64,000 nt of DNA from Collinsella sp. AM18-10. Lineage in GTDB: Bacteria > Actinomycetota > Coriobacteriia > Coriobacteriales > Coriobacteriaceae. The number at the start of each line of letters is the position of its first letter. Positions within the stretch are counted from its first letter, which is position 1. Under the pieces are notes generated by a model, which saw only the letters and a program-made list of their open reading frames with translations, ran no database searches and was not told the DNA's origin. A program made the position numbers and the translations under genes. The DNA lies in NCBI RefSeq assembly GCF_003471585.1, contig NZ_QRJO01000008.1, positions 1 to 64,000 on the forward strand, given 5' to 3'. This document shows positions 27,510 to 64,000 of the stretch, piece after piece.

Positions 27510-27594
27510 TGGTAGGGGCGGTGGGACTCGAACCCACAATCCTTGCGGCGAGAGATTTTAAGTCTCCTGCGTATGCCAATTCCGCCACGCCCCC
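27510..27594 (-). tRNA. tRNA-Leu (anticodon UAA)
   Basis: Read leftward from 27594: acceptor GGGGGCG, D-arm GGCGGAATTGGCATACGC, anticodon stem-loop GAGACTTAAAATCTC with anticodon TAA, a long class II variable arm (TCGCCGCAAGGA), T-arm GTGGGTTCGAGTCCCAC, then CGCCCCT and an encoded CCA end. The long variable arm and the UAA anticodon identify leucine. Confidence 0.95.
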
Positions 27595-34914: not shown

Positions 34915-34952
34915 CAACTACGCAGAACCATCGACAAGAAAGGGGCCGTGAC

Positions 34953-36551: not shown

Positions 36552-37154
36552 ATGCCCGTTATGTATCGTGAACCCAGCATTATCAAGAAGTCCAAGGACG
36601 GCCGCGTTGCCGCTGTCGATATGGCAAGTGAGCTGCTCAACAGCCGCGTGCTGTTGCTAGAGGGCGAGGTCAACGATGTGACCTGCAACGGCCTTATTAA
36701 GTCCATGCTGGTGCTGGAACATCAGGACGCCCACGAGCCCATCACCCTCATCATCAACAGCCCGGGCGGTAGCGTTACGGCGGGGCTGGCGCTCATCGAC
36801 ACCATGCAGTCGCTCGATTGCCCCGTAATCACGGTGGGCGAGGGCGTCGTGGCCTCGATGGCCGCAGTGATCCTGGCCTGCGGCGACCACCGCCAGGTGT
36901 ACCGCCACACGCAAGTGCTCATCCACCAGCTGATGGGCGGCACGGGCATGGCGCAACAGACCGATATCGAGATTGTGGCCCAGCACACCGCGGCCATGCG
37001 CGCCGAGCTGGACGAGCTGCTGGCCGAGCATGGCAACCTGAGCGCGCAGGAGTTCCACGAGCTCACCGAGCGCGACTGCTGGTGCAACGCCAAGCGCGCC
37101 CTGGAGCTAGGCCTGGTGGACGAGGTGATTGCTCCGAGTAAGAAGGCGCTCTAG
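36552..37154 (+). CDS. ClpP-like serine protease
   Basis: A 200-residue member of the ClpP/crotonase fold. The catalytic triad is conserved in order and spacing: Ser102 in GVVASMAAV, His125 in VLIHQLMGG and Asp175 in TERDCWCN; INSPGGSVTAGLALIDTMQ is the family segment. The N-terminus and several core stretches differ from housekeeping ClpP, so this is an accessory paralogue. A ClpX-like AAA+ gene lies in the same island at 52530, and the two could pair. AGAAGGGAA precedes the start. Confidence 0.88.
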   Translation: MPVMYREPSIIKKSKDGRVAAVDMASELLNSRVLLLEGEVNDVTCNGLIKSMLVLEHQDAHEPITLIINSPGGSVTAGLALIDTMQSLDCPVITVGEGVVASMAAVILACGDHRQVYRHTQVLIHQLMGGTGMAQQTDIEIVAQHTAAMRAELDELLAEHGNLSAQEFHELTERDCWCNAKRALELGLVDEVIAPSKKAL

Positions 37155-43620: not shown

Positions 43621-43623
43621 GCA

Positions 43624-45277: not shown

Positions 45278-47437
45278 TCAGTCCCGCTTCTCCGGGTCAT
45301 ATCCCTTTGTATACACGGTAAAACTAAGGTCATAGATCATGCCGGTGCTGCAGACACATGCGTCGGGCGTGTTCCATGTGTCCTGGACGGTCAGGTCGGT
45401 TGAGACACGCTCGGGCTCATCAATTCCAAGCAATGGAATGGGCTTAGCCATCTGATCGGCGCTATTTATCTGCGCAATGATCTCCAGCAACTTGTATAAC
45501 TTGATATGCCAGGAGCTGTACGGGCGCTCGCCGGGCCCCTTGAAATCCAGTGTGCATTTTGATTGCGGCCTTTCGGCGAGTCGGCTCAAGCGTTCAAAAA
45601 GCGCTGGGTACTCGACTCCTGGAAACTCGACTCGTACATATCGATTGCCATCGCGGACGACTCCGTACCACATTACAGAGTATGGAAAGCCGATCCTATC
45701 CGGTCGTTTGATTTCTGTCCTGCAATTGGGCTGGTTGACGATAGACAGCCATGTCGCATAGAGCTCGTCGGAAATAAGGTCACTCGCTTGGTATGTTGGG
45801 CCGAGACCATCGAGGACAAAGTTGCCAAGACGCTCAAAATAGTGGGCACAATCTGTTAGGCCTTTTTTATATGCCGTATCGGCCTTTCTCTGCATATTGA
45901 GCGCGACATCGCGGGGTGATTTGCGACCAAGATGTTTTTTGGTGTTATATCGCGGGTTGCAGTAAAGCTTGGTTTCCTTGTTATATCGGTCGCAGTATTT
46001 GCTGTTGGGACCGGTCGGAAAAAAGAGCGAACCGCAGGTTTGGCATGACATCGGCATAATGCCGCACAGCAGCAGCTCGTGGAGGATGCGGGCATAAAGG
46101 CTTGCGAAGGACCATTCCTTTTCGGTGAAGTAGAGCTCTCCTGCCTTTGAAATAACGGCTTGAAGCCCAACGAGCCTATTGAGGTTTTCCTGGTCGTTAA
46201 GCTCTGCATGCGTATGGAAGTCTCCATTTGCGAAGATCTGGTTCTCGCGCATAGCTTCTAGATAATTTTTACGAAACGCCTGCATAAAGGGGGCGCTATT
46301 CATCCGCTTTATATCGTTCAAATGTTCTACGAGCTTTTGGGCCGTTTCGTTTCCGGGCAAGTGCTTTTTGGCTGCGCATGCAAAAGCTTCGCCAAAGCGG
46401 ATGATTGCCGGCAGCTGCTCATCGAATAATCGAAATTGTCTCGGGTCGCTTGTTTTGATGGCGGCTGGGAAAAACTCTTCGTTTTGCGCGAGCAGGCTAG
46501 GTGCCTCGGTGTTTTTAAGCAGCGGGGCAAGCTCCAGACATTCCTGATAAAAAACAATGAGAAGCGCTCGAAAGAGCTCGGTATTGGTGCAAACACAAGC
46601 TGTTTCTATCTGTGATTTGACCTTTGGAAAGTTGTATCTTGGATTGTCGTGGTCATACGGCACCGGTGCTGTTAGATCGGTCTTGCCGTTGGTAGCGTTA
46701 ATGCTCATGTCGTTCGACTCGAGTTTGAGATAGGAGCTAAAGAGGGACGCTATTTCTTGCTTGTTGAGTTGGCCCGATGTTGTAATCACCGCGCGGTACA
46801 AGCGGTTGATTTCGTTGCACTCAATAGCGTTGTTGTCCATCCAGCAGCTGTAATAGCGATAGTCAGGAATCGCAGTGATGTTCATGACGCACTGTCTGCA
46901 GACACTTTCGAGGAGATATCTGGCCATGCCGGAAATCTCTCCGTGCGCATGGCGCGTAATGACCTTGTCGATTATCGGAGCAAAGAAATCGAGATCGCTT
47001 TCCTTTTGTTTTTGAAGGTTGACTTCGATTTCGGCTTCGTTCAATTCTGCTTGTGCGGATTCTTGGTCGGGGTCGTCTGGATCGAGCTGGTCGTCATGGC
47101 CTGGCTCGGCTGCCCAGTCCATCGAAGCTTGTTGCGCATGGTGAGGAGCAGTAGAGGACTGGCGAATGGCGTTTTGCAAATCGATATAAAAGCGCTGGTT
47201 TGCTCGCTCACGAAAGTGGTCTCCGATTTCGTTGAAAAGCGAGCTTAAGTCAACGCGCAATAGGTCGTTGGCTATGGAGACGAGATTCCATGCGCTTGCA
47301 TTGCCGGTTGCGTTTTCGTCACCGGCACAATCAATCTCTGGCGTCCTGTTAAGAAGAAGCATACGGGGATTGACGGGGGAGCGAAGAAAGCCAGCCTCAA
47401 AACCCCAGTTAAATGGTTCTTTTTCGGACTCAAGCAT
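45278..47437 (-). CDS. DUF6076-type zinc-finger protein
   Basis: A 719-residue soluble protein, mostly helical. At ~463-495 a Cys-rich site (SCQTCGSLFFPTGPN, KYCDR, LYCNPRYN) forms a zinc-ribbon-like motif followed by a basic helix; this matches my memory of DUF6076 proteins from gut Firmicutes and Coriobacteria. An acidic Gln/Asp/Glu-rich stretch lies at ~110-150. The C-terminal part has many aromatic and Arg residues. Function is unknown; location among defence genes suggests nucleic-acid sensing. GGAG precedes the ATG. Confidence 0.7.
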   Translation of the reverse strand: MLESEKEPFNWGFEAGFLRSPVNPRMLLLNRTPEIDCAGDENATGNASAWNLVSIANDLLRVDLSSLFNEIGDHFRERANQRFYIDLQNAIRQSSTAPHHAQQASMDWAAEPGHDDQLDPDDPDQESAQAELNEAEIEVNLQKQKESDLDFFAPIIDKVITRHAHGEISGMARYLLESVCRQCVMNITAIPDYRYYSCWMDNNAIECNEINRLYRAVITTSGQLNKQEIASLFSSYLKLESNDMSINATNGKTDLTAPVPYDHDNPRYNFPKVKSQIETACVCTNTELFRALLIVFYQECLELAPLLKNTEAPSLLAQNEEFFPAAIKTSDPRQFRLFDEQLPAIIRFGEAFACAAKKHLPGNETAQKLVEHLNDIKRMNSAPFMQAFRKNYLEAMRENQIFANGDFHTHAELNDQENLNRLVGLQAVISKAGELYFTEKEWSFASLYARILHELLLCGIMPMSCQTCGSLFFPTGPNSKYCDRYNKETKLYCNPRYNTKKHLGRKSPRDVALNMQRKADTAYKKGLTDCAHYFERLGNFVLDGLGPTYQASDLISDELYATWLSIVNQPNCRTEIKRPDRIGFPYSVMWYGVVRDGNRYVRVEFPGVEYPALFERLSRLAERPQSKCTLDFKGPGERPYSSWHIKLYKLLEIIAQINSADQMAKPIPLLGIDEPERVSTDLTVQDTWNTPDACVCSTGMIYDLSFTVYTKGYDPEKRD

Positions 47438-47880: not shown

Positions 47881-47987
47881 GCGCGACTTGGTATCACTGT
47901 GGGCAAACAATCTCTAGTCGGGGTCGACTAGAGACTGCGTCCTAGGTGCCGTCGATTCCGGTTCTAATTTCTGTTGAAAGGGAAATC

Positions 47988-48812
47988 ATGAACGCTTCTC
48001 TCCAAATTCCGTTCAGCACCGTTGAGGCCGCGCCCCGCACCGCCAAAGGTGAGGTCGTCAAGCTCGTGCAGGGCGCGCTGCTCATTGCCGTTGCTGCGGT
48101 TGCCGCCGTCGGCATCGCCTCCGTCGCCGCTCCGTTTTGTGTTTGGAAGGGCGAGGTCGCGCTGTTTCTGAACGAGTCGTTCCACACCAACTGCTCAGTT
48201 TCTGCGATCGCGGAGTACGCGTCAGCGGCACCCGGGTCTGATTGGGCGTCGCTGCTCGTGGCCGTGCTCATCGCGGCCTACCCTGCCTACCATGCCGTCT
48301 GGCGCGTTCGCGAGGGACTTGGGCTCAGCTGCGAGGCACCGGTATTCTGCAGCCGTGTGTCGCGCCTGCTCGCTGCGGTGAGCGCCTGCCTGCTGCTTGC
48401 GATGCTGTTCATGGGCTATGGAACGAGCTGGCTCATCAACGGCAGTGCGATGGGTGACCAGGGACTTGTTGAGTCGGGGCACAATGTATGGACCGCTTCT
48501 ATCGTGATTATGCTGGACTGCGCCCTGATGTGCCTGTTCAAGTGGTTCCTTGCCAAGGGCCCCGGACGCAATTTCGGCAGCGGCTTTGCCGTCGAGCTTG
48601 TCCGCCTCGCCGACGTTCTGCTGAAGCGCGCGAGCTCGAACCTGGTGTTGTGCTATGTGGCCGAGCTGCTTGCCTGCCTGCTGGCGCTGACCTTCATTGC
48701 CGTGGCCTATGTCGTCGTGAGCGTGGCTATCGCGCTCGCATTCGCAGCCATCGCCTTGGCGGTGTGCGTTGCCGGGATTCCCGTTATCCTTGCTGCCTCG
48801 TGGCGCAGGTAG
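47988..48812 (+). CDS. Polytopic membrane protein, unknown (1)
   Basis: A 274-residue protein with about six hydrophobic helices: ~27-52, ~95-110, ~130-155, ~170-185, ~215-235 and ~240-270, the last very Ala/Val-rich and ending AGIPVILAASWRR. The overall plan resembles the membrane protein at 51482-52219, whose C-terminus reads SLAIPVVFAFLAIAIAA. No transporter motif is seen. AAAGGGAAAT precedes the ATG. A strong hairpin at 48841-48881 follows the stop. Confidence 0.65.
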   Translation: MNASLQIPFSTVEAAPRTAKGEVVKLVQGALLIAVAAVAAVGIASVAAPFCVWKGEVALFLNESFHTNCSVSAIAEYASAAPGSDWASLLVAVLIAAYPAYHAVWRVREGLGLSCEAPVFCSRVSRLLAAVSACLLLAMLFMGYGTSWLINGSAMGDQGLVESGHNVWTASIVIMLDCALMCLFKWFLAKGPGRNFGSGFAVELVRLADVLLKRASSNLVLCYVAELLACLLALTFIAVAYVVVSVAIALAFAAIALAVCVAGIPVILAASWRR

Positions 48813-48840
48813 CGGGGCGATCATGCGAGTTCTTATCGCA

Positions 48841-48881
48841 GCGTGAGAAAAACTTGCAGAAATCGCAAGTTCTTTTCACGC
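48841..48881 (+). terminator. Hairpin after membrane protein gene (1)
   Basis: GCGTGAGAAAAACTTGC (48841-48857) pairs with GCAAGTTCTTTTCACGC (48865-48881) with two mismatches. The left arm is then repeated directly (GATGAGAAAAACTTGCAG, 48883-48900), so the region has undergone a small duplication. Confidence 0.7.
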
Positions 48882-49601: not shown

Positions 49602-49672
49602 CCGCCGCGCTGAATGGCGCGCCTGATTGACAGGCCGTCGGAAAAGTCCGGACATTCTGCCAATCTCGGTCG

Positions 49673-51277
49673 CTACATCGTTCCCTTGCTCGCGGCGTAA
49701 TGTTCCGCCTGTTTAAGGGCGTTCTCGTAGGCGCGCTGCTTTGCTTCGTACTCTTGCGCGTAGCGCTCCTGTTCCACTTGGCTGGGAACGGGTACGGTCA
49801 TGCTTCGCAGGTCCTTGGGAGATAGCTGTGCAAGCGAGTCTCCGTGCGAGGAGGCCAAGAGCTTCTGCTGTCCTTCATCGGATGACAGGTAGGCTAAGAA
49901 GAACCGTGCTAGTAGTTCATCTTTAAAGGATGCGCAGAAGACGACATCGCAAGGGACAATGAGCTTAGGGCATAACTGGGGTTTCTGGGGTGCCGGTTCG
50001 CGCTTCATGCTTCCCGGCACTACGAGGGCCAGCTTAAATGGCGGTCCGAAGCGTGAGATCATTATGCAGGTTTCATACTCGCCCAGCGGTTTGAGACGAT
50101 AGAAATAACCTGGATCCGTATCGCCCATATCGTAAATATCCGTATCGGATACGCGCTCGGGTAGATCTTCGAAACCGATGGTCGTTCCATCGACTAAGTG
50201 TTTAAGCGATAAGTAGTAGCAGTCGATTCGTCGGTCCGTTCTGCCAAGACCCATCTGTGGCACCTTTAAAAGGGTGCTACGCGGAATGCCGCGGCGTATG
50301 TCCGCTACGGTGCCAAAGCGAACGAAGGACTCCTCTGCAAAAGAGGTGCTTTTAGCTTTCGGAAGTAAAGGCCAGATTTTTTCAGCACCCCGATCGCCGA
50401 GATGCCAATGCGTTGCATCGGTTGTTTCGGCATAAGCATGGCTAATCGAGTCTTGGATCTGATGCATGAGCTCACTTGTCATGGGCTTGTCATCAAATGA
50501 CCGCCCATCAAAGAGGAAATATGACTCGTTGGGTTTGCGGTCGCCTAGAAATAGTAGGGCATAGCCATCGCTATTGGCTGCGATCGTATTGGGAAGCAAC
50601 ACTATCGCTGTCAATAGTCCAAGCTGGCAGAGCAGACGGCGCCCGTCTGCGGCGCGTGCCAGGTTGAGCAGTCGGTTGGAGACTTGTACGACCGCAATGG
50701 AATTCGGACGTTCACATGCAAGGGAAGCTGCGAGAAAAACGTAATACCATTCGCTGACCGAAAGCGGGCTTGGTACATCGACAAGTGTTTGCAGTTGATG
50801 GGCCCTCGACGTAAGGAAATCCTGAACATGCTCATTTGCAATTTCGAGCGAGGGCTCAAATTGAGTGAGGGGGATTTGCTCGGGGGGTCTGCAGTAGATG
50901 AGCACGGACTCATCGGTACGGGGCATGGCGCCCGATTCTGGCGTTGAGGCAAAGACATCGGCTTTGGTAAACGAAAAAGACGGGTCAGCGGATGTGTCGC
51001 GAGTTCCAAATTCGATGTTTTCGGGGTCCTTAAGGTCGATGCCCCAAATAGACCATGCGGATCCATCTGCATAGTCCTGGGCAAACTCAAAATCTCGGCA
51101 GCACAACTCGATAAGCGTATGAACTCTTAGCGTTGGCTGGAGTTTTGAGACCATAAAGGAAACCAGGTTTGCAAGAAATGCGCTGCTATGAGGCTCTGGC
51201 TCCTGATTGTAGGCATGGTAAAGGCCTAGCTGGGCTTGTTCTGCGCGAGACAGAAGCACGATTGCCTCCTCGGACAT
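49673..51277 (-). CDS. Degenerate HsdM-HsdS-like fusion protein (2)
   Basis: A 534-residue protein of the same plan as that at 32270-33706. The methyltransferase-like part keeps the outline: IELCCRDFEFAQ at motif I, IWGIDL at motif II, and LACERPNSIAVVQVSNRLLN after motif IV. The motif IV NPP(F/Y) is replaced by YCRPPEQ and motif I lacks Gly-x-Gly. Residues ~320-534 resemble an HsdS target-recognition domain (VADIRRGIPRSTLL, LIVPCDVVF) with a coiled-coil end (VEQERYAQEYEAKQRAYENALKQ). Methylation is unlikely; DNA recognition is plausible. It is divergent from the 51.5-60.6 kb array. Confidence 0.65.
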   Translation of the reverse strand: MSEEAIVLLSRAEQAQLGLYHAYNQEPEPHSSAFLANLVSFMVSKLQPTLRVHTLIELCCRDFEFAQDYADGSAWSIWGIDLKDPENIEFGTRDTSADPSFSFTKADVFASTPESGAMPRTDESVLIYCRPPEQIPLTQFEPSLEIANEHVQDFLTSRAHQLQTLVDVPSPLSVSEWYYVFLAASLACERPNSIAVVQVSNRLLNLARAADGRRLLCQLGLLTAIVLLPNTIAANSDGYALLFLGDRKPNESYFLFDGRSFDDKPMTSELMHQIQDSISHAYAETTDATHWHLGDRGAEKIWPLLPKAKSTSFAEESFVRFGTVADIRRGIPRSTLLKVPQMGLGRTDRRIDCYYLSLKHLVDGTTIGFEDLPERVSDTDIYDMGDTDPGYFYRLKPLGEYETCIMISRFGPPFKLALVVPGSMKREPAPQKPQLCPKLIVPCDVVFCASFKDELLARFFLAYLSSDEGQQKLLASSHGDSLAQLSPKDLRSMTVPVPSQVEQERYAQEYEAKQRAYENALKQAEHYAASKGTM

Positions 51278-51409
51278 ACGTTGTGCGATATGGAGTGCGC
51301 CGTTGTTGGCAATGGCACGATGCGGTCAATTCATATTATCAGCCTAATTCCGATTAATTTGAAATTGAGTGTTTATAGCTTAATCCGCGAGGGTATCAAC
51401 TGCGATAAG

Positions 51410-51433
51410 TTTTTAGAAATAAAATTCTAAAAA
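51410..51433. promoter_or_regulatory. AT-rich perfect inverted repeat in a divergent promoter region
   Basis: TTTTTAGAA and TTCTAAAAA with a six-base spacer lie in the 204-bp AT-rich gap between the leftward HsdM-HsdS-like gene and the rightward membrane protein gene. It is well placed to be an operator, or a small terminator-like hairpin in the leader. Confidence 0.45.
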
Positions 51434-51481
51434 TGGTCTGGCCTTCGGACCAATATTGCGACAGCAACGAAAGGACAGCTA

Positions 51482-52219
51482 ATGAACGGATACGACATGT
51501 ACAGGATCGAGCCAGACATCCCCAAGAAGCCAACTGTGATGAATATTGTCGGCATGATTCTGCAAACCCTATTTGCGGTTGTGCTGTACGTTGTCGCCGT
51601 CGACATGATGTGCTTGCTGACGACGTGGCTCGGCGGCTTTATGTTCGAGATCGGCGAGGGCAACACGGTGATTCCGCTCCACTCATGGCGTCTGGTGGCG
51701 TTTAGGGTGTACTGGGTTGTACTGGGCGTGGGCGTCGTTGCAGCGCTTGCCCGCAAATGGATCGTGCTGTTAACGGGAGCGCGTGAATCCGACATGTGCG
51801 AGCTGCTCGGTGCAATTGAGGATGCGGGCGCATTCGCGTCCGTCGTGTGCGCGATCGTCTGTTTGCTGGGCTATGCCGCCGCATTTGATTGGTGGGCCGG
51901 CGTTACCGGAAAGATGGCTTCGGATTCCCGCGCCAATGATTACCTGCTTTGGGCTGTTGTCTTAACCATTGGAACGATTGTTGAGTGGCGAATTGTCGAG
52001 GGAGTCTTCAAGGCTTTATTCCCTCATGAGTGCCTGTTTCACGGGCTTCGCTTTGCGTCCGCCTGCGTGGTTACTCCTCTGCTTGCGCTTGTGCCCACCG
52101 CACTGACCATCGTCGTGTGCGCGGTGGTGGTAGGCCTATTTGCCGGGATTCTGTTTGCATCGCTTGCGATCCCCGTAGTTTTCGCGTTCCTCGCCATCGC
52201 CATTGCAGCCAGCCATTAA
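51482..52219 (+). CDS. Polytopic membrane protein, unknown (2)
   Basis: A 245-residue protein with about six membrane helices (~22-46, ~68-90, ~112-132, ~150-170, ~185-205, ~212-243). The C-terminal two helices resemble those of the protein at 47988-48812. AAAGGAC precedes the start. It opens a run of six rightward genes ending at 60640 and could be the membrane or effector part of that set. Confidence 0.65.
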   Translation: MNGYDMYRIEPDIPKKPTVMNIVGMILQTLFAVVLYVVAVDMMCLLTTWLGGFMFEIGEGNTVIPLHSWRLVAFRVYWVVLGVGVVAALARKWIVLLTGARESDMCELLGAIEDAGAFASVVCAIVCLLGYAAAFDWWAGVTGKMASDSRANDYLLWAVVLTIGTIVEWRIVEGVFKALFPHECLFHGLRFASACVVTPLLALVPTALTIVVCAVVVGLFAGILFASLAIPVVFAFLAIAIAASH

Positions 52220-52261
52220 TGAATCACGCGCGCCGAGGCTCGCATAAAGAAAGGAACGGCC

Positions 52262-52468
52262 ATGTCGCTAATCTCTAGCGCTCAAAAGGTTCTGTTGCTC
52301 GCCGTACTTACCGCTCTTGTGGCTGGTGCCCTGATGTACGAAGTCCTGCATCCCACCCTGTTCCCGCTGCTCAAGCAGGGTATTTTACAGCTGCTCTACC
52401 ACATTCCAGTCTTTACGCAGCCGGGCAACGTGATCTATTTGGAGTCGGTGACCTCGCTGGCGCTGTAG
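52262..52468 (+). CDS. Small single-pass membrane protein
   Basis: A 68-residue protein with one clear membrane helix (VLLLAVLTALVAGALMY, ~10-27) and a second weakly hydrophobic stretch. AAAGGAACGGCC precedes the ATG. It lies between the polytopic membrane protein and the ClpX-like gene and is probably co-transcribed. No family recognised. Confidence 0.6.
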   Translation: MSLISSAQKVLLLAVLTALVAGALMYEVLHPTLFPLLKQGILQLLYHIPVFTQPGNVIYLESVTSLAL

Positions 52469-52529
52469 GAGTTTAAGGGCTTGGGCCCACGTCATAGGTA
52501 AGAAAGCAAGTTTTGAAAGGAAAACACCC

Positions 52530-54299
52530 ATGACTCAGAAGCAGTATCGAAGCGTCGATCGCTACCAGGACCTGCTCAATCGAATTGCGCCTACGCGCCT
52601 GGTGGAGCAGACGCGCCAGAGCGTTATTGGCCACGAGGGAAGCTTGGAGGCCTTTGTGACGGCGCTGAGCTTTGAGGTCAACCGCTGCGTGATGTTGGCA
52701 CGCGGCGCCGATCCGCGCGAAGTCCTTTCGCCCGCTGCCATTTTGGTGATGGGTTCTACCGGTACGGGAAAGACCCACACCATCAAAGCCGTGGCGGATG
52801 CCGCGGGGCTCAAGCTGTTCGTGTTCGATGTCTCCACCATGACGGGAGAGGGCTGGCGCGGTGCCAGCATGAGCAACTGCCTGTCGCAGGTCGCGGACTA
52901 TCAGGCTGCGAATCCCGGCGATATCTGCCTGGTGCTCTTTGACGAGTTTGACAAGGCGGTTCGTGCCGAGCCCGATGGGAGCGACGTTGCGTCCAGCTTT
53001 AGTCCGTCACAGTCGTTCCTTAAGCTCTTGGAAGGCGGGGAGATGCCGTTTGAATGCGAGAGCCAGAAGGGCACGGCGATGAAATCGCTCAATCTTGATC
53101 AGGTTGTCTGCATTTTGGGCGGCGCCTTTATGGGCTTGGATGCTCTGGTGCGCAAGCGCCTGGCCGGCAAGGCCGGTACCATGGTCGGTTTTGGATCTTC
53201 GTATGCCGCCGTGCGCACCGCCGCAAAATCGGCAAACGAGCTGCGAGACAGTGCGACCATCGAGGATGTTGAGACTTGGGGCATTATGTCCGAGCTGTGC
53301 GGGCGCATTGGCTCGGTGATTAACTTTAACGCCTTGAGCGTGGACGACCTGGTCCAGATTGCGTATGAACAGTACCTGCCCAAGTACAACAACATGATGG
53401 GAAATGGCGCCAAGATGGAACTGACGGCAGATGCTGCTCGCCTTGCGGCGAAGCGCGCGGTTAAGGAAGGTGCCGGCGCGCGCGGTATGCTCCGTCAGCT
53501 GCGTCCCCTTATGATGTACGCCTGGAGGGACATGCGGGAAGATACCTATATTTCCCGTGCGACCTTGGTCGTGAGCGACGGGGAACTTGCGGTTGCGTAC
53601 GAGCGCTCTCATGAGCCGCGGGGCTTTTTGCAGGAAGAGATGGGGGAGAATTCGCCCTTTCTGAACGGGAGGGAGATTGAAGCCCTGACGCTGGTGAACA
53701 ACTGGATGGAGCATGAGGACGAGGACGAGCATAAGCCGTATCAGCCTGAGTTTGCTTGGCTGGTGGATTTGGTGGACGGCTCGGCGCTCGACAAGATCGT
53801 GCAGGGCGGCAAGGCATTCGATCTTGCTGGGGTGTTGTTGCGCGGCGTTCCGTTTGATGGGCCGGAGCGCATTGCCGCCCACGAGCTGCTTAAGGCGTGC
53901 GCCTGCTACAACGACGTGCTCTATGCCGATCAGGACAAGTATCGCAACCTTGCTCAGGTGCTTACGCTCACCAAATTGGTGTACAAAAATTCGCCCGATT
54001 GCTTGCTGAGCCCGCTCGATGTGGTTATGAACGGCACGACTACGGGCAACGGTTTTCAGGGTCTTGGCGAGTGGGTCGATGCCATGAGCAGGTCCGAAAA
54101 GCCTTCGTTGGAAAAGTGGCAGTATCTGGCGGCCGGGGAGGCCCTGCGGATTTACGACCACTTTAGCAAGCGCCCCGACCAGGTTAAGGAGCTTGCCGCC
54201 GAGGTGTCCCTGATGCGTGTTGCCCTTGCAGTGATGGACGTTGAGGAGCGTGAGGCATTGGAGTGCGATCTTGAGAAGCTGCTCGCTTCGTGCGAGTAA
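52530..54299 (+). CDS. ClpX-like AAA+ ATPase with a long C-terminal extension
   Basis: A 589-residue protein. Residues ~1-340 are a ClpX/HslU-type AAA+ domain: VIGHEGSLEAF at the start, Walker A VMGSTGTGKTHTIKA (~74), Walker B LVLFDEFDK (~134), then LLEGGEMPFE and a sensor-2 Arg in GAGARGMLRQLRPLM. There is no N-terminal zinc-binding domain, and I do not see the IGF/LGF loop ClpX uses to dock on ClpP. Residues ~340-589 are of unknown fold. It could unfold proteins for the ClpP-like protease at 36552, or remodel complexes for the helicase encoded next. Confidence 0.8.
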   Translation: MTQKQYRSVDRYQDLLNRIAPTRLVEQTRQSVIGHEGSLEAFVTALSFEVNRCVMLARGADPREVLSPAAILVMGSTGTGKTHTIKAVADAAGLKLFVFDVSTMTGEGWRGASMSNCLSQVADYQAANPGDICLVLFDEFDKAVRAEPDGSDVASSFSPSQSFLKLLEGGEMPFECESQKGTAMKSLNLDQVVCILGGAFMGLDALVRKRLAGKAGTMVGFGSSYAAVRTAAKSANELRDSATIEDVETWGIMSELCGRIGSVINFNALSVDDLVQIAYEQYLPKYNNMMGNGAKMELTADAARLAAKRAVKEGAGARGMLRQLRPLMMYAWRDMREDTYISRATLVVSDGELAVAYERSHEPRGFLQEEMGENSPFLNGREIEALTLVNNWMEHEDEDEHKPYQPEFAWLVDLVDGSALDKIVQGGKAFDLAGVLLRGVPFDGPERIAAHELLKACACYNDVLYADQDKYRNLAQVLTLTKLVYKNSPDCLLSPLDVVMNGTTTGNGFQGLGEWVDAMSRSEKPSLEKWQYLAAGEALRIYDHFSKRPDQVKELAAEVSLMRVALAVMDVEEREALECDLEKLLASCE

Positions 54300-54431
54300 T
54301 CGCCGGCTGTTCCTCTTTCCTTTCTCTTCTTTTCTCAAGCGGCATAGACGCCGTCTCAACCGCCCTGCGTGAGTTTTTGTCCGCATGGGATGGTATTCAA
54401 CACATGCAACAACTAAATCGGAGGTTTGACC

Positions 54432-57400
54432 ATGGCTACGTGGGAACTGAACTGTCAATCGAGCCCGTCGTCTGCGGGCGACAAGGAGCTTGCCCCCTAT
54501 CTCGCACGCCAAAAGGTGATGCGCGAGTTTTTTGAGCGTGCGCTGTTTGCCCCCAAGGACCAGGACGGCGCCAAGAATCAGGGCGACAACGGCCTGTATT
54601 TTTTGGGCGCCACGACGGGCTCGGGTAAAAACTACACGGCCGAGCAGGTCACGGCAGACCTGATTGCCGGTGGCTGGGATGAGTCGGGCTGCTTTAACAA
54701 ATGTCCTGGTCGCCGTACCTTGGTGTTTGTGGTGCCGGGCAAGGACAACCGCGACAACTATGTTGCAAGCGTGCGCGAATTGCTGGTTGAGCAGGGCATG
54801 AGTTGTGGTGAAGCGGCACACATGGTGTTCGATCTTCCGCGTGCTGGAGAGAACATCACAAACTGGATTGATACCGCGTTTGACAAGGGCAGCATGAGGC
54901 CGCGTGATATTCCTTGTCCCTTTGGAGCGAAGGACGAGGCTGTTGTTCGCGACATTACGCACGCCTGGAACAGCGCGATGGAAATCGCTGATGATCTTTT
55001 GGGCATTTTGGACAAGAAGGATCGCTTGGGAAGTGTTGTCGACCGCCTGACTCCAGGGCTGTGGGATAAGCTGGCGTTGGCAGACGCGAGCTTGCGTCGA
55101 GCGGTGAGCCGTGGACGCCAGAGCATCACGCGTGGCTTTGAGGAGATTCCCCGGATTTGGCCCTCGGCATTGCTTAACGATAAGCGCACGCCGCATGTAA
55201 TTGCATGCACGCCGCAAAAGCTCGTCAATAGAATCGATACGGTGACAGGAGCGGGCGTCGTGTTCTTTAACGCAACGGTTGCCGACGAATGCCTGTTTAT
55301 CTTTGACGAGATCGACCATGCGAAGGCCGATATGCTGTCGATGCTGGCAACGGGGCATATGAAATTTCAGCCCGACGAGATGCTGCGTATTCTTGACCGT
55401 CATTTTAATGGTGGCGTGGTGGATCCTCTGCTGTTGGGAAATCGAGACCAGTGGATGGCGGTCTATACGCATGCCTCGACCTCGGGCGAGCACGAGGGGT
55501 CAAACGCGGCAACGGGCAAGGTTTCGCGCACAAGTGTGGAGACGGCTGCCGAAGAGATTGCCAAGAACGCCCAGCGTATGCAAAAGATGATCGCTGCGTG
55601 TATTCAGGATATGGAGCTGCAGCAGCCTTTTGCCTTGTCTGACAAGGCGAAAGACGAGCAGCTTGCCGGACGTCACCTGTTTGGCAGCGACGATATTTCG
55701 GTGGGCGATGGCCTGTCGAATCCCTTGCGTTATGAGTTCGATACTCGCCGCAACCGCAACATGATTACGTCTTGCGGGACGGACGAGCAGCAGACCGTCA
55801 ACAAGGCGGTGCGCCGTGCGCGCGGCCTTGTCAGGATGGTGGTGGGCCATCTTGCCCGTTGCGCCACGCTTATGGACAAGCTGTACTACGGCAGCATTTC
55901 GTACAAGGACGATCTTTCGCGCAAGAATATCATCGATGCCATGGGCATTAGGAACGACCAGACCAACGAGAAATACTTCTGGAATTCGCTGATGCTGGCA
56001 CTGTTCTTTAAGGACCGCAAGAACGACGAGATCGATGCCGTTGACGACTCGATGTATGCGCGTGGTGTTGACTACCTGGTGATGGAAACCACCATCGACC
56101 ATATGTTTACCACGTACCTGACTAATCACGGCATTGAGCGCATGCCCGAGGCGTATCTGGCCTCCATTGCCGCCAAGGCTCCCTGCGTGTGCATGAGCGC
56201 TACCTGGAATGCGCCGACCATTAAGAACTTTGATCTGGATTACCTGGACGAAGTGCACGGCGTGGTTCGTAAAGATGCTTGGATTGGCGAGCTCAACCAG
56301 GAGATCGTGCGGCAGACCAAGCTGTTCAACAAGCAGGCGGCAACGGTGTACGACGTCGACGTTGTTTGGGTTGACGAGTCCAAGAAGCTTGCCGGCATGG
56401 CGGCCGTGGCCGGCGGCGCCTATGGCGGCGGTATCGTGTCGCCCGACGAGGTGTACGAGCATGCGATGGAATTCTTTGACCAGATTGGCGTGAGCGAAGG
56501 GCTTGCGGCGTGCCTGCGCCGAAAGATTGCCGACAGGGTGACCACGAGCGATGCCGAAAGCATCGAGTTTGAGCTCAAGCGTCTGAGCAAGACGCTCGTT
56601 GCCGTGAGCGCCTGGGCGCGTGGCGTGGCGCGCAGTGAGCAGCAGGCGGGAGCCATCTTTACGACACGACACATGGGAAACCATGGCGACTTTAATAGTT
56701 TGGCGCTGGATCTTGCCCGAGAAATCGTTGCCGAACTGGTGATTAGGAACGTTAAGCACCCCGAGGCGTCGTACGAGAAGTCGCTCGAGGAAGCCAAGGA
56801 TATGGTGCCGTGCTTTAACGCCTCCGGCTGGGAGGAGGGCTGGCGTGACGCTCAGGGGCGTCTGAAGGACGGCAAGCCGACCCTGATGTTTATCAATCTT
56901 GCTGCTGGCGGCTTTTCCAAAAACCTCAAATACGAGGTGCCGGAGAGCCTGCGCGACACGGTGCGCCAGGTGGACTGCGGCTTCGATAACGCTGAGCGAC
57001 ATCCCAAGATGGATCTCGATTTTTTGTACGTGGAGTCGCCCACGAGCCGCTTGACCTGGGGAGTCGATATGAGCTCAAAGAAGTTTGACCAGCAGGCGCT
57101 GCTTGGCGTGGTCGAACAGGAGGAGCTCGTGACGCGCGGTGAGATCCCGTTTATTCAGAAGCGCCATCGCGTGCGCACGGTACTGGCGGGCGTTGGCGGA
57201 AAACTGCCGGTGCGCGACACCCTCTCTTATCAGGTCGAAGGAGCCCGCATTGTGGCGCAGGCCGTGGGTCGCTTGATGCGCACGAGCGTAAAGATGCCGC
57301 ACGTACGGGTGATGCTCGATCGCGAAATCGTCGGCGATTGCGATTTTTCGTTCCTGCATGATTTGCCGATGGGCTACGAGCTGGAGCAGGTGGTTGGTGC

Positions 57401-58382
57401 CTGTGCGGCCGTCAACAATCACATGGCGGACAAGAAGCAACACGCTGCTAGCAAGCAACAGAACCTTGCTGCCTTTAGGAACAATCTGGCGAAGGAGAAG
57501 CACGAGAGGCTGGCGTGGAGGGTTACCTCGCTCGATGCGCGCGAGGAAGATCTGGCCGCCTTTGACGACGAGCGCGACTTTTATCTGCATCATTTTTGCC
57601 TGCCGTGGGAGGACCTTGCGAGCTATCCTGCGCGCAAAAGCACTGCGCTACACATGCCGTTCCCCGCGAGTGGCTATGCGTACGCGGAGGGCGGAGCGTG
57701 CAAGGTGCCGCATTTTGGGTTCCCCAGCTACGACGGTGAGCCTGTCGAGCAGATTGCCGCCCGTCTGGAGGAGTGCTGCTGCTATAACGAGGGCTTTAAG
57801 GGCGCGAAGGTTCGCCAGGTAAGCCAGACGGCGGCCCGTGTGCCCGAGCTGTTGTCGATTCGGGAGGTGCGCGAGCGTTGGTCGCGCGACGGGGTGCCCG
57901 CGATGCTGCAACCGGCGGCGACGGCGCACATGACGCCCTATATGTTCCAGGCGGTGTATCTGGGAGAACTGGGAGAGTCTGCCGGTAGGGCCATCTTCGA
58001 GGCGTATTACGATGGCCGGTATTTGCTTGCGCGTGGTGACGCTGCCCATGCCGAGACGGGCGGCGATTTTGAGGTGCTCGATGCCGCCGGCAACAAGACC
58101 GGGGTGTGGATCGACTTTAAGCACTATCGCATCGGCGCCTACGAGGCCTACAGGCGCAGCGGCGGCGAGACTACGGATGCCGAGCGCTTTAAGGCAAAGG
58201 CTCAAAAAGTTGGGGCGAAGCGCCTGTTGATCGTCAATGTTTTGGCCGATGAAGCGGCGCTGGAGCTCCGTCAAAAGCCGATCGATGGCGAGGGGATGGT
58301 GTTCTCCTTCCCCTATATGGCAGCTGATGGAGCAATCAGTTTGGAGATGATGGAGGCGATCGGTCGTGTAATCGAAGCATAG
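54432..58382 (+). CDS. SF2 helicase fused to a C-terminal PD-(D/E)XK-like nuclease
   Basis: A 1316-residue protein. The motor has motif I FLGATTGSGKNYTAEQ (~60), Ia LVFVVPGKDNRDNY, II LFIFDEIDHAK (~290), III CVCMSATWN (~586) and VI AQAVGRLMRTS (~942). A ~300-residue insert separates II and III. Near the C-terminus GGDFEVLDAAGNKTGVWIDFKHY (split Asp ... Asp-Phe-Lys, ~1211-1230) and AKRLLIVNVL look like a PD-(D/E)XK nuclease. Oddity: Walker A ends GKN rather than GKT/S. GGAGG lies seven bases before the ATG. A type-III-like or PIWI-RE-associated helicase is the nearest idea. Confidence 0.75.
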   Translation: MATWELNCQSSPSSAGDKELAPYLARQKVMREFFERALFAPKDQDGAKNQGDNGLYFLGATTGSGKNYTAEQVTADLIAGGWDESGCFNKCPGRRTLVFVVPGKDNRDNYVASVRELLVEQGMSCGEAAHMVFDLPRAGENITNWIDTAFDKGSMRPRDIPCPFGAKDEAVVRDITHAWNSAMEIADDLLGILDKKDRLGSVVDRLTPGLWDKLALADASLRRAVSRGRQSITRGFEEIPRIWPSALLNDKRTPHVIACTPQKLVNRIDTVTGAGVVFFNATVADECLFIFDEIDHAKADMLSMLATGHMKFQPDEMLRILDRHFNGGVVDPLLLGNRDQWMAVYTHASTSGEHEGSNAATGKVSRTSVETAAEEIAKNAQRMQKMIAACIQDMELQQPFALSDKAKDEQLAGRHLFGSDDISVGDGLSNPLRYEFDTRRNRNMITSCGTDEQQTVNKAVRRARGLVRMVVGHLARCATLMDKLYYGSISYKDDLSRKNIIDAMGIRNDQTNEKYFWNSLMLALFFKDRKNDEIDAVDDSMYARGVDYLVMETTIDHMFTTYLTNHGIERMPEAYLASIAAKAPCVCMSATWNAPTIKNFDLDYLDEVHGVVRKDAWIGELNQEIVRQTKLFNKQAATVYDVDVVWVDESKKLAGMAAVAGGAYGGGIVSPDEVYEHAMEFFDQIGVSEGLAACLRRKIADRVTTSDAESIEFELKRLSKTLVAVSAWARGVARSEQQAGAIFTTRHMGNHGDFNSLALDLAREIVAELVIRNVKHPEASYEKSLEEAKDMVPCFNASGWEEGWRDAQGRLKDGKPTLMFINLAAGGFSKNLKYEVPESLRDTVRQVDCGFDNAERHPKMDLDFLYVESPTSRLTWGVDMSSKKFDQQALLGVVEQEELVTRGEIPFIQKRHRVRTVLAGVGGKLPVRDTLSYQVEGARIVAQAVGRLMRTSVKMPHVRVMLDREIVGDCDFSFLHDLPMGYELEQVVGACAAVNNHMADKKQHAASKQQNLAAFRNNLAKEKHERLAWRVTSLDAREEDLAAFDDERDFYLHHFCLPWEDLASYPARKSTALHMPFPASGYAYAEGGACKVPHFGFPSYDGEPVEQIAARLEECCCYNEGFKGAKVRQVSQTAARVPELLSIREVRERWSRDGVPAMLQPAATAHMTPYMFQAVYLGELGESAGRAIFEAYYDGRYLLARGDAAHAETGGDFEVLDAAGNKTGVWIDFKHYRIGAYEAYRRSGGETTDAERFKAKAQKVGAKRLLIVNVLADEAALELRQKPIDGEGMVFSFPYMAADGAISLEMMEAIGRVIEA

Positions 58383-58395
58383 CCAGCCGTGTGGC

Positions 58396-60261
58396 TTGGG
58401 AGACATCGCGGTTTCCGAGCTTGTGTTGCGGCTTGATCCCGCGGCCGCCGAGGAGCGCTATTCTGTCTTTTGGTGTAACGTCGGTGATGCGGGCAAGCAT
58501 GCCGTGGCAGACTTTATGGCCGATGTGTGCCAGACGGGCAAGGTTGTCGCGCTCACCCAGCTCGAGGACAACCGCATCTTTCTCATGGTCAAAGCGGGCG
58601 CGCGGACGGGCGACCTTAACGCCCCACTCGGCCATGAGCAAATGGTTCCGATTAAAACTTATTGGGATGAGCTGGACGATTATGTCGCGTTGCGCCTGCT
58701 GTTCAACTCGTGTTCGCAGTTTGAGGGGATTGAGGACGAGATCCCCAACGACGCGGGGCACCTGTATGTCATAAGCGCCAAGGGTGCTCGTCGTGATGCC
58801 GTCGAGGAAGCCGGAAGGGGTCCTGCCAAGATTGAAACGGTCGAGACCGTTATCAACGAGGATTGCACCTTCGAACTCAAGATTCGAACGTTTACCAAGC
58901 GCCGAGTGCTCATCGGTCGTGCGGCAGGCAACGAGTTAGAACTCAAGAAGATCAACAGCCAGGTGGGTTACAGGCTGTCGCCTGTGGCTACGGTGGTGCT
59001 GGCGCACGGACAAAGTGACGAGTACATCCTGCGCCGCGCCAAGGGCGATAAGCCGTCCAAACGTCGTGACCTTACGTTTTCTGCCCAGGCGGAAAAGGTT
59101 GCCTATACCAAGAAGGGCATCCTGTACCGAGAGCTGCAGATTCTTGAGCGCCGGTACAGCGATTTTGCCCGAGTGTCGCTCGGGGAGTATCCGCGCAAGA
59201 GCTTCTACGAGGTTCTGAAAAGCGACCGATATGCCCGCGTGGTTGCGGAGCGTTCGTTGGGGCAGCGGGCTGTGGTGTCGTTTGCGGGTGACGGGCTTGA
59301 TGGGATGGCGCGCCAGTTGGTCGATCGGCTCAATGATTCTTCGTGGGGCGTACACGCGTCGTATGGCGGCAGGGCTGTTGATCCGCTGGCATGGAATATC
59401 GTCGTGGTGCCCAACGAGGTTGCCGAGGACGATGGCTATGCCCTGCATGCTGGCGTGGTTGAGCAGCATGTGACGCCGGATGTGTGCGAGCCGCTGGTCA
59501 AGGCGGCATCGAATGCAAAGGTGCGGGGCGCTCAGGAGGGAGTCCTGGGAGCCATGCTCAAAGAGCTGCTGGTAAAGCAGGACGTTGCCGACGGCCGTGT
59601 GAGGGCGTTTGGCCTTGGTTCTTTTGACATTGAGTCGGTGACGGTCTGCGGCGTGGTCAATGTCCCACGCAAGGAAGAAGGCAAGATTGAGCTCGATGAG
59701 CGCCTTGCAGCCCTAACGATTGATGCTGACGGGGGCATGGACTACGCCTCGCATTCCATCGAGGATGGTCCCGTGGACGAGATGGAGTTTGAGCTGTTGA
59801 CGGCCGATGGCAAGCTCGACAAGGACGCCTATATCTTTGACGTGCGGGCGGGTGGGCAGTCTATGCTCGCGCGCGTGCGGGATACGGGCTTGACGACCTT
59901 CTCTAACAGCTTTGCGACCTTGGTGCGCGATTACCAGCTTGCGGGTAAGGCAGGTCGTAAGAAGGAGTTTTTCGAAAGCTACAACTCGCCCTATTACGGC
60001 ATTGGAACGTTCGAACGTGCAGGGATGACCTGCTACTTTGTGGGCGTCAACAACGGCACCAAGGAGGACCTGGCGACGGCGATTCATGTGCGCTCGATTG
60101 AGGTGCTCGAAGGCGACGATCTGTTCGAGCTGCTGGTCCAGCTGGTGAATGTGGGACTATCGCGCCATGGGGCTCCCTCCAGGTGGCCGATTCCGGTGAA
60201 GTATCTCAACGAATATGCGGCGCGTGAGGGTGCGGCGGGAGAGTCTGGCATTTGTTTGTGA
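58396..60261 (+). CDS. Putative divergent PIWI/Argonaute-like protein, predicted nuclease-inactive
   Basis: A 621-residue protein that I cannot place in a named family with certainty. The C-terminal half follows the MID-PIWI plan: IVVVPNE, then YALHAGVVEQHVTPDV (~348, like the K/Q...tQ segment), VLGAMLKELLVK (~382, like the conserved helix before PIWI), a first PIWI strand VTVCGVVNVPR (~415) with Asn where active Argonautes have Asp, and a terminal GAPSRWPIPVKYLNEYA (~594) like the PIWI C-terminus. The start is uncertain: the TTG at 58396 has no good ribosome site; it is 13 bp after the helicase stop. The pairing with a helicase-nuclease recalls PIWI-RE loci. Confidence 0.45.
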   Translation: MGDIAVSELVLRLDPAAAEERYSVFWCNVGDAGKHAVADFMADVCQTGKVVALTQLEDNRIFLMVKAGARTGDLNAPLGHEQMVPIKTYWDELDDYVALRLLFNSCSQFEGIEDEIPNDAGHLYVISAKGARRDAVEEAGRGPAKIETVETVINEDCTFELKIRTFTKRRVLIGRAAGNELELKKINSQVGYRLSPVATVVLAHGQSDEYILRRAKGDKPSKRRDLTFSAQAEKVAYTKKGILYRELQILERRYSDFARVSLGEYPRKSFYEVLKSDRYARVVAERSLGQRAVVSFAGDGLDGMARQLVDRLNDSSWGVHASYGGRAVDPLAWNIVVVPNEVAEDDGYALHAGVVEQHVTPDVCEPLVKAASNAKVRGAQEGVLGAMLKELLVKQDVADGRVRAFGLGSFDIESVTVCGVVNVPRKEEGKIELDERLAALTIDADGGMDYASHSIEDGPVDEMEFELLTADGKLDKDAYIFDVRAGGQSMLARVRDTGLTTFSNSFATLVRDYQLAGKAGRKKEFFESYNSPYYGIGTFERAGMTCYFVGVNNGTKEDLATAIHVRSIEVLEGDDLFELLVQLVNVGLSRHGAPSRWPIPVKYLNEYAAREGAAGESGICL

Positions 60262-60726: not shown

Positions 60727-63700
60727 ATGAGCAAGAACATGAACAAGGACATGAACGGCAAGGCCTTGGGTAAGGCCAGGGCGGCTGGGCGCGTGGCGAC
60801 AGTTGCTGCGGCGACGATTGTCATGACGGGCGGCTCGCTGCTGTCGCCCCTGGCCGCGGCGGCGCAGGGTGTGGATGGCATTGGCACTGCATGCGCAACG
60901 GCTGCGGTGATGTCGCCGCTGGCGAGCGCTGCATCCGCCGGCGCTGGTACGGGTGCTGTGTCTGCGGCTCAAAAGGTCGCCGATCTGCAGGCTGCAGTTG
61001 ATGCGGCGCGCGCCAAGGCTGCTGCCGCCAAGGCCGATCTGGAAGCGGCTGCTGTTCCCTACGATGCCGCCGCCGTCAACCGGCAACAGGCGCAGGGCGC
61101 CTATGACGTGGCCCGCGGTGCGAGCGATAGTGCGGCTTCTGCTGCCTCGGCCGAGCTGGAAAAGCAGATGGGCGCTGCACAGGACAAGGCCGATTTGGAT
61201 GTCAAGGCGCTCGAGGACGCTCAAGCTGCGCTTGATGCCGCCAAGAAGAACCTGGCAGACAAGGACGAAGCCCTGACTACCGCCCAGAAGGCATCCCGCG
61301 ATGCTCAATCTGCGCTCGAAGCTGCACAGGCCGCTGCATCCGATGCCACACCCGAGGCCGTAGCCGCTGCCCAGGCTGCCGCAGAGCAGGCCGCGAGTGA
61401 TTTGGAGCAGGCAAAGCAGCAGGTTGTTGATGCGCAGGCCAAGCTCTCGGATGCTCAGGCCGCTGCCGCTGCTGCCGCTTCCAAGCAGCAGGACGCGCAG
61501 GGCAAGCTTTCGGCAGCTCAACAGGCAAGGGCTGCGGCAGATGCGGACGTGGATGCTGCACAGGCGAGCTATGACGCAGCCAAGGCCGATCTGGACCGAG
61601 CCGAGCAGGGCGCTGCGGGCCCGGAGTACGAGGCCGCCAAGGCAAAGGTGGCCGCCGCGTCCGAGGAGCTGACGGCCGCCAAGACCACGCAGTCGCAGCG
61701 CGAGAGCGAGCTTGCTGCCGTCGAGCAAGAGGTGACCGCTGCCGAGGGCGAGGTACAGACTGCCCAGCAGGCAGTTGCCGATCAGCAGCAGGTTGCTGCC
61801 GAAGCCCAGTCCAAGCTGGATGCCGCTGTTGCCGCCAAGACGGCGGCCGATGCCGCTCTTGACCAGGCCAAGACTGATCATGCCAGTGCGCTCACGGAGC
61901 TGGCCGATGCCCAGGCCAAGCTTTCGGCGGCCAAGGACGAGAAAGACGCTGCCGACAAGGCGCTCGATCAGGCGAAGGCCCAAAAACAGCAGGCCGACCA
62001 GGCTGTGGCTCAGGCTCAGGCAAAGCTCGATGCCGCTCAGGCAACGGCGAACGCATCGGCAGAGAACTACCGCCAGGGTGCTATCGCGTTCTTTAAGAGC
62101 GTGGGTGCCGACGATGCGGCGGATATCATCCTCAACTGCAAACTCGCTAGCTATAACAAGGTGGGTGAGGAGGTCGACGCGACGAGCCTGGCCAACATGA
62201 AGCAGGCGGTTGTGTGGCTCAAAGCGTGCAACGAGTATCGCGCAAGCGTTGGCCTGGGCGAGCTCAAGGTGACGTATGCCATGATGGCGACTGCCATTGC
62301 GGATGCGAACTTCTCCGACACGAAGATCGATCACGCCAGGCAGTTCGAAGTGGGCGAAAACGTGGCATGGAACTACGGAAGCAATCCGTTTAAGCAGTGG
62401 GTCGATCAAGAGAAGGCCGTCTTTGACGCTGCTGCCGCCTCGCTGGGCGCGACGGGCCTTACGGGAAAGGCCGCTTACGATTTTTATACGGCGCATAGTT
62501 CCGAGATTGATACCTACGCCGTGAAGCATGGTGATTCGGTCGGCCATTACATCAACGTAATCGATCCCAGCTACACCGTGACGGGCATGGGCGTTTGCAC
62601 GCGTGGAACGATCAACGGGTACAGCACGCAAGCGCAGACATTCGTATATTCTGGTCAATGGTACGAGCCGTACAACGTCAATCCGATGACGGTTGCTGAG
62701 TATGAGGCTGCGCTGAACGCGTGGTGCGACTCTCTGGCAAATCCCGAGCAGGGCGTTGACACGGCACGCAAGGAGCTTGCTACGGCGCAGGGCGTTGCTG
62801 ACGATGCCGGCAACAAGGTGGACGCAGCATCGCAGACCGTTGCGGCAAAGCAAGCTCAGATTGAGCGCGCTGTCGCTGACGTTGATGTCGCGACTGCCAA
62901 GGTCTCGGAGGCTCAGGCTTCTGTGGAGCAAAAGCAGGCTGCAGCTGACGTCGCCGCGCGTGCTGTCAGCGATGCCCGCGCCGATTTGAGCGCTGCCAAC
63001 GCCGCAGTTGCGGCGGCTCAGGACGCCGTGGCCGCCAAGTCTGGCGAGCTCGACATTGCCAAGGGCAAGGTGGCTGCTGCCAAGCGCGCACTGGATGCCG
63101 CTCGTGTCGGTGTCGGCGACAAGCAGGATGCACTTGCCGCGGCCCAGGATGAGCTGGCGGCGTATTCGGCCGATATCGCTGCTGCTCAGCGTGCGTTTGA
63201 TGCGGCATCGTCTACGCTCGAAGACGCACGTGCCAATCAGCGTGAGGCGGAGGCTGAACTTGCTGTCGCCCAAGGCGATGCCGATCGGGCAGCCATCGAT
63301 GCTGCTGGCGCTCAGGCGGAGCTCGATATGGCCCAGCAGGCTGCGAGCGATGCTGGCGCTGCCGCGACAACGGCTCAGGCAAAGTCTGATGCAGCTGCCG
63401 CGCGTGCCTCCCAGCTTAAGAATGCCGCTGCAGCACTTTCCAGGGCTACTGAGGACAAGCTCGCTGCCGATGCTGCGCTTGATGCTGCGGAGATGGCCGT
63501 GAGCGATGCCGAGTACGACTTGGTGGAGGCTGACGATGCCGTGACCGCGGCCGCCGCCGCCCGCGATGCCTCTGCCGCCGCGGTCACCCGCCTGCGCAGG
63601 ATCAATCTTGCCGAAGCCATCGCCAACGGCAGCGCTGACGATGTGGACGAGGCGCTCAACGCCAAGATCGCTGCAGCTCACAATGCCGCCGAGCGCGCCG

Positions 63701-64000
63701 CGACCGCCAAGGCCGAACTCGATGCCGCCGTGGCTGCGACGGATGCCGTGGCGCCGGCATACTTGGAGGCGCTCGCCAACTACACCGCCGCCAAGGTCGA
63801 GCTCGACCAGGCTATTGCCGAGCTTAACGCCGAGATCGCTCGCCAAGAGGCCGCCGACCGCGGAAACGGCGAGCAGACCCAGCCCGTCACGCAAGTGACG
63901 TACCAGGCCAAGCATGCGGAGGCAAAGACCGAGGCCACGACTTGGCAGACGGCGATGCCCGCCACGGGCGATGCGTCCGAGCTGCTGGGTGAGACCTTCG
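60727..64000 (+). CDS. Secreted coiled-coil CAP-domain surface protein, 3' end outside window
   Basis: At least 1091 residues, open to the window edge. A signal peptide (~1-47: basic start, VATVAAATIVMTGG, cleavage near LAAAAQG) leads into ~400 residues of Ala/Lys/Asp/Gln-rich coiled coil. A CAP/SCP domain follows (~490-650: ACNEYRASVGLGELKV, ARQFEVGENVAWNYG, VGHYINVIDPSYTVTGMG), then a second Ala-rich coiled coil (~680-1040). The last visible part has MPATGDASELLGE, an LPxTG-like sortase signal whose membrane helix lies beyond the window. GGAAGGAA precedes the ATG. A cell-wall-anchored adhesin or scaffold is likely. Confidence 0.88.
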   Translation, partial: MSKNMNKDMNGKALGKARAAGRVATVAAATIVMTGGSLLSPLAAAAQGVDGIGTACATAAVMSPLASAASAGAGTGAVSAAQKVADLQAAVDAARAKAAAAKADLEAAAVPYDAAAVNRQQAQGAYDVARGASDSAASAASAELEKQMGAAQDKADLDVKALEDAQAALDAAKKNLADKDEALTTAQKASRDAQSALEAAQAAASDATPEAVAAAQAAAEQAASDLEQAKQQVVDAQAKLSDAQAAAAAAASKQQDAQGKLSAAQQARAAADADVDAAQASYDAAKADLDRAEQGAAGPEYEAAKAKVAAASEELTAAKTTQSQRESELAAVEQEVTAAEGEVQTAQQAVADQQQVAAEAQSKLDAAVAAKTAADAALDQAKTDHASALTELADAQAKLSAAKDEKDAADKALDQAKAQKQQADQAVAQAQAKLDAAQATANASAENYRQGAIAFFKSVGADDAADIILNCKLASYNKVGEEVDATSLANMKQAVVWLKACNEYRASVGLGELKVTYAMMATAIADANFSDTKIDHARQFEVGENVAWNYGSNPFKQWVDQEKAVFDAAAASLGATGLTGKAAYDFYTAHSSEIDTYAVKHGDSVGHYINVIDPSYTVTGMGVCTRGTINGYSTQAQTFVYSGQWYEPYNVNPMTVAEYEAALNAWCDSLANPEQGVDTARKELATAQGVADDAGNKVDAASQTVAAKQAQIERAVADVDVATAKVSEAQASVEQKQAAADVAARAVSDARADLSAANAAVAAAQDAVAAKSGELDIAKGKVAAAKRALDAARVGVGDKQDALAAAQDELAAYSADIAAAQRAFDAASSTLEDARANQREAEAELAVAQGDADRAAIDAAGAQAELDMAQQAASDAGAAATTAQAKSDAAAARASQLKNAAAALSRATEDKLAADAALDAAEMAVSDAEYDLVEADDAVTAAAAARDASAAAVTRLRRINLAEAIANGSADDVDEALNAKIAAAHNAAERAATAKAELDAAVAATDAVAPAYLEALANYTAAKVELDQAIAELNAEIARQEAADRGNGEQTQPVTQVTYQAKHAEAKTEATTWQTAMPATGDASELLGETF

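Follow-up and report, generated by a model that had tools for sequence, protein, structure and literature searches.

A very probable DdmDE-type plasmid-defence gene pair, divergent from known members, in Collinsella sp. AM18-10

Two adjacent genes were analyzed in a stretch of 64,000 nucleotides from Collinsella sp. AM18-10 (contig NZ_QRJO01000008.1, hereafter the window), both on the forward strand and arranged as in the plasmid-defence system DdmDE. The ddmD-like gene (54432..58382) encodes a protein of 1316 amino acids (aa) that joins a superfamily 2 (SF2) helicase to a PD-(D/E)XK-type nuclease at its C-terminus, and the ddmE-like gene (58396..60261) encodes a long Argonaute-like protein of 621 aa, read from a TTG codon and lacking a conserved first catalytic Asp. 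The ATG of the ddmD-like gene at 54432 is preceded by GGAGG at 54420-54424, its stop codon occupies 58380-58382, and a gap of 13 bp separates position 58382 from TTG 58396. A first-pass annotation of the same DNA had described a 1316-residue SF2 helicase with a C-terminal nuclease signature, followed 13 bp later by a 621-residue protein; both reading frames were recovered at these positions and their motifs were conserved. Since both are 80-94% identical in three other Collinsella genomes, the frames are not due to chance.

The motifs of the helicase-nuclease were compared in an alignment of 10 rows, including relatives from Nostoc and Lactobacillus and numbered after the 1316-aa protein. The Walker A residues T62, G63, G65 and K66 were nearly invariant, and the other helicase motifs (D292, E293 and D295; S589, A590 and T591; Q943, A944, G946, R947 and R950) were kept invariant or nearly so. 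The nuclease residues E1182, D1212 (nearly invariant), D1228 and K1230 were also kept. A Foldseek search with a model of the last 776 residues gave 19 matches at E ≤ 0.001, all 19 of them DdmD; the fold evidence on DdmD refers to this C-terminal part, and the N-terminal 540 residues were judged from motifs only. Sequence matches to Lactobacillus casei DdmD (E 5.9e-7, phmmer against PDB sequences) and, weakly, to the PADLOC DdmD model (E 3.3e-6) agreed with the structure matches on the identity of DdmD. Motifs, phmmer and Foldseek together indicated a helicase and a PD-(D/E)XK nuclease in one polypeptide, as DdmD requires.

The predicted structure of the 621-aa protein has the DdmE fold, in agreement with the earlier suggestion of an Argonaute-type protein beside a helicase-nuclease. 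With the AlphaFold2 model as query, Foldseek ranks 1-6 in PDB were all DdmE (best E 9.6e-25). The PADLOC models gave no family at E ≤ 1, and neither did a single-sequence hmmscan against Pfam, including PF13032, PF18157 and PF02171. Two other classes were considered and rejected. PIWI-RE systems combine a divergent PIWI protein with a DinG-type helicase and a restriction endonuclease as partners; here the 621-aa protein had no Pfam match, and the helicase was nearer to DdmD than to DinG, as the first-pass annotation had already sensed in describing it as not DinG-like. Short prokaryotic Argonautes (pAgos) such as SPARTA and SPARDA have only MID-PIWI and act with a separate APAZ effector. The structural alignment with DdmE extended from residue 2 to 615, whereas SPARTA chains aligned only from about residue 262.

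Conservation in the ddmE-like family was analyzed with 112 aligned proteins, namely the protein of the window and 111 of 120 listed homologues (at least 590 aa; nine shorter ones were dropped). The motif VTVCGVVNVPR had been read as carrying Asn in place of the first catalytic Asp. This Asn is present as residue 422 and the column holds N in 85 proteins, but D in 24 (V, R or K in the remaining three), so the replacement stands for this protein and for most of the family without extending to all of it. The presumed first catalytic Asp position is not conserved in the DdmE-like family, yet not always lost. D496 was invariant in 112/112, and Y348, Q357, K389 and K394 were invariant in the same alignment. 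DdmE is described as a catalytically inactive pAgo in PMC12409362. To judge from the sequence, the missing first Asp would fit this published inactivity, and the 24 Asp-bearing homologues count against generalising.

Taken together, the gene pair, the folds of DdmE and DdmD (its last 776 residues), the conserved motifs and the co-occurrence of the two genes identify the pair, with little room for doubt, as a Collinsella DdmDE, a divergent representative of a type of plasmid-defence system that is already known. Its identity to known DdmDE proteins was 15-19% in structural alignments. The DdmDE of L. casei (PDB 9ix4, 9iw3, 9ixm) likewise consists of two proteins, with the helicase-then-nuclease order and an Argonaute-like partner of equal fold. 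It differs in sequence (about 15-17% identity, structural alignments), in host (Lactobacillus there, Collinsella here) and in size, DdmD having 1192 aa against 1316 and DdmE 715 aa against 621. The proteins of Vibrio cholerae (PDB 8u3k, 9ezy, 9bgk and others) were about 15-19% identical; the gene upstream of ddmDE in that species is a helix-turn-helix (HTH)-WYL gene according to PMC12409362, while a ClpX-like gene takes this place in the window. The proposal of a distinct new architecture was thus given up in favour of the known DdmDE, whose principle the first-pass annotation had reached independently. No publication naming both DdmDE and Collinsella was found among the papers searched, and an earlier actinobacterial listing in supplementary lists is possible. 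The biology is already known, and the Collinsella pair is a divergent addition to DdmDE.

By homology, the DdmDE mechanism may be carried over to the Collinsella pair. In the model presented in PMC12409362, DNA guides are bound by DdmE, which targets plasmid DNA and draws DdmD out of an autoinhibited dimer. Once loaded on the non-target strand, DdmD moves in the 5'-to-3' direction and cuts. The same model appears in PMC12904381, where one sentence swaps the names of the two proteins. In Collinsella, the 621-aa DdmE would load a short DNA guide and pair it with invading plasmid DNA, itself not cutting. It would then recruit the 1316-aa DdmD, which would leave its autoinhibited dimer state, load on the displaced strand, translocate, and nick or degrade the plasmid. 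Guide loading, DdmD recruitment and plasmid loss would accordingly be expected by extension from the other DdmDE systems described in the literature.

The nearest relatives were from Collinsella, namely three uncultured Collinsella metagenome-assembled genomes and a C. aerofaciens protein (P0019). The genome nearest to the window was G001, with 23% of sampled words in common. In a large protein database, at least 122 DdmE-like and at least 103 DdmD-like homologues were detected at E ≤ 0.001. The helicase was found at the same threshold in three of 65 genomes of the family (G001, G029 and G068), all belonging to the same genus, which accounts for 43 of the 65; the partner gene was present in all three. 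A wider helicase profile (A5) detected it in one of 396 genomes of the phylum and in five of 296 genomes of the class, the fifth (G096) being doubtful at E 7.8e-4. These counts indicate that the ddmD-like helicase is rare among the genomes searched. The PADLOC DdmD model gave no match in 197 genomes of the class, and this result is uninformative because the control was equally silent. A DdmE profile search added no proteins to those of the first search, and a scan of genome contigs returned, among the matches listed, only the three known Collinsella genomes.

Relatives were also located on plasmids. A tblastn search with the helicase against 72,556 plasmid records had a Nostoc plasmid as its sole match (E 5e-15), and the Nostoc helicase as query revealed relatives on plasmids of Persicobacter, Cetobacterium and two of Lactobacillus, one of these two being a weak match in Lactobacillus delbrueckii H6. 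With the Nostoc partner protein as query, tblastn against the plasmids returned that protein alone. The helicase had no tblastn match in 50,697 phage records, and no relative was found in viral contigs scanned with just two short peptide patterns. Four of these plasmid loci were opened, all but that of L. delbrueckii; in each, the helicase gene is followed on the same strand by a gene for a hypothetical protein of 606-761 aa, whose start lies at or upstream of the helicase stop codon. The partner was related to the Collinsella protein in Nostoc (BLASTP E 2e-5, hhalign 58) and Lactobacillus (E 0.001, hhalign 80), and showed no sequence similarity to it in Persicobacter and Cetobacterium (0.3 and 0.2). 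The corresponding hhalign probabilities of the helicase were 99 (Nostoc), 94 (Lactobacillus), 41 (Persicobacter) and 44 (Cetobacterium); five unrelated proteins of the window, used as controls, all scored ≤3.2.

A single-contig genome from another family of the order (G640) has adjacent genes for a DdmD of 1325 aa and a DdmE of 732 aa. The first-pass annotation had proposed to test whether homologues always neighbour the helicase-nuclease; a partner gene was adjacent in 9/9 opened loci, and similarity of the partner sequence was seen in 7/9. In the protein database, the length of the longest contig was exactly equal between three of five divergent DdmE proteins (P0113, P0119 and P0120) and the divergent helicases P0217, P0220 and P0218. 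This suggests that the matched proteins lie on the same contig, although a size match alone is no proof. No such match was obtained for the DdmE proteins P0112 and P0114 or for the helicases P0215, P0216 and P0221-P0223.

The pair could alternatively belong to the ApsAB branch (the helicase-nuclease ApsA with its partner ApsB) or be an intermediate, with a similar mechanism and a MID-type guide pocket, which we consider unlikely. ApsAB of Escherichia coli ST38 is also an anti-plasmid system of a helicase-nuclease with an Argonaute-like partner, and ApsA and DdmD are described in PMC11096173 as one continuous family with two partner types. The invariant Y348, Q357, K389 and K394 of the Collinsella protein resemble part of the ApsB guide-pocket motif. 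However, the motif given in PMC11096173 (Y-x3-K...QG...K) is not matched by the Collinsella partner: at the first Lys position 108/112 proteins carry A or V and one carries K, and H comes after Q in 112/112. The DdmE fold match was full-length, whereas ApsB is reported there to be without typical PIWI and PAZ domains. ApsAB was set apart by this published motif and description, with no ApsA or ApsB sequence in the comparison. A different doubt, compatible with the DdmDE identity, concerns the state of the pair in this strain. The usual size among listed homologues of the 621-aa protein is 631 aa, and near-identical 631-aa copies exist (P0001, P0002). The 631-aa frame begins in G001 and G029 at a GTG equivalent to 58366 of the window, where the next codon is a stop; the 621-aa reading from TTG is therefore a fallback start. 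Inspection by eye gave no clear Shine-Dalgarno sequence ahead of TTG 58396. DdmE may be shortened by ten residues or poorly made in this strain, and decay of the pair, with the system inactive here and intact in relatives, is possible but less likely than not. Only ten residues would be lost, which are unconserved among divergent homologues, and the remaining frame is intact; moreover, translation could be initiated by coupling to termination of the helicase gene, whose stop lies 13 bp upstream, and the stop after GTG 58366 could be a sequencing error.

The ClpX-like AAA+ ATPase gene (52530..54299, 589 aa; NCBIfam PRK05342.1, E 1.2e-32, below the curated cut-off) lies on the same forward strand 132 bp upstream of the ddmD-like gene and is full length in G001. 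Together with an accessory ClpP gene on the same contig in three ddmDE genomes of the genus, this arrangement would suit a three-part system, in which DdmD or DdmE would depend on the ATPase for loading, remodelling or turnover. Against this, both G029 and G068 lack positions 49646-54160 of the window as a single block. This block comprises the ClpX-like gene except about its last 45 codons, which remain, a gene for a 245-aa membrane-like protein and a type I specificity-like gene; because this remnant occurs without the rest of the gene, the absence is interpreted as a deletion. A second stretch (47882-48880) is absent in the same two genomes. Both ddm genes are full length in G029 and G068, and the ATPase is thus unneeded for the pair to persist. 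The ClpX-like gene was rejected as an obligatory third part and is regarded as a neighbour. In the plasmids of Nostoc, Persicobacter, Cetobacterium and Lactobacillus, too, no ClpX-like gene is annotated immediately next to the pair, and a three-part system appears highly improbable. Just as little credence is given to a mobile island carrying DdmDE, the ClpX-like ATPase and ClpP, in which the ATPase would regulate the system, for example by parting the autoinhibited DdmD dimer or clearing DdmE, and lineages without it would be unregulated.

A scan for sigma-70 promoters and terminators gave sites no more numerous than in shuffled sequence. Several other features were identified in the window. 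The accessory ClpP-like protease is encoded at 36552-37154 on the forward strand (Pfam CLP_protease, E 3.6e-50), and copies 98% identical occur on the same contigs in the three ddmDE-bearing genomes among the 43 of the genus, the next best being 60-61%. The ClpX-like protein has a VGFG stretch, which we take to resemble the ClpP-binding loop of ClpX, and its gene at 52530 and the accessory ClpP could form a second ClpXP pair. A type IV secretion system (T4SS) coupling protein of the VirD4/TraG type (34866-36437, forward strand; PF02534, E 7e-50) may mark an integrative conjugative island. Genes for a C5-cytosine methyltransferase, a McrB-like ATPase and an LlaJI endonuclease (40596-45075, forward strand) form an apparent LlaJI-type restriction system, which with the T4SS coupling gene would fit a mobile island rich in defence genes. 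At 27315-27332, 195 bp from 27510-27527, lie 18 bp that repeat the 3' end of a tRNA-Leu gene (27510-27594, reverse strand), perhaps the trace of an attachment site. The reverse-strand gene at 45278-47437 encodes a protein of 719 aa whose sole match, to DUF6076, stays below the threshold (E 0.033); it occurs in all three ddmDE-bearing relatives, in two pieces in G068. Downstream of the pair, a gene open at the window end (60727-63999, forward strand) encodes a large protein, rich in alanine and coiled-coil-like, that carries a CAP domain (PF00188, E 5e-4, at the cut-off). This gene is also present in genomes without ddmDE, e.g. G019 at 89%, where the contig ends about 0.5 kb past it, precluding an empty-site comparison.

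As a very probable DdmDE, the pair extends this type of plasmid defence to a human-gut actinobacterial genus, and the homologue set (at least 122 DdmE and 103 DdmD at E ≤ 0.001) is available for a divergent DdmDE branch. The PADLOC profiles are weak on DdmD and blind to DdmE of this branch, and defence catalogues built on such profiles may undercount DdmDE. If active, DdmDE might bear on the plasmid content and transformability of Collinsella.
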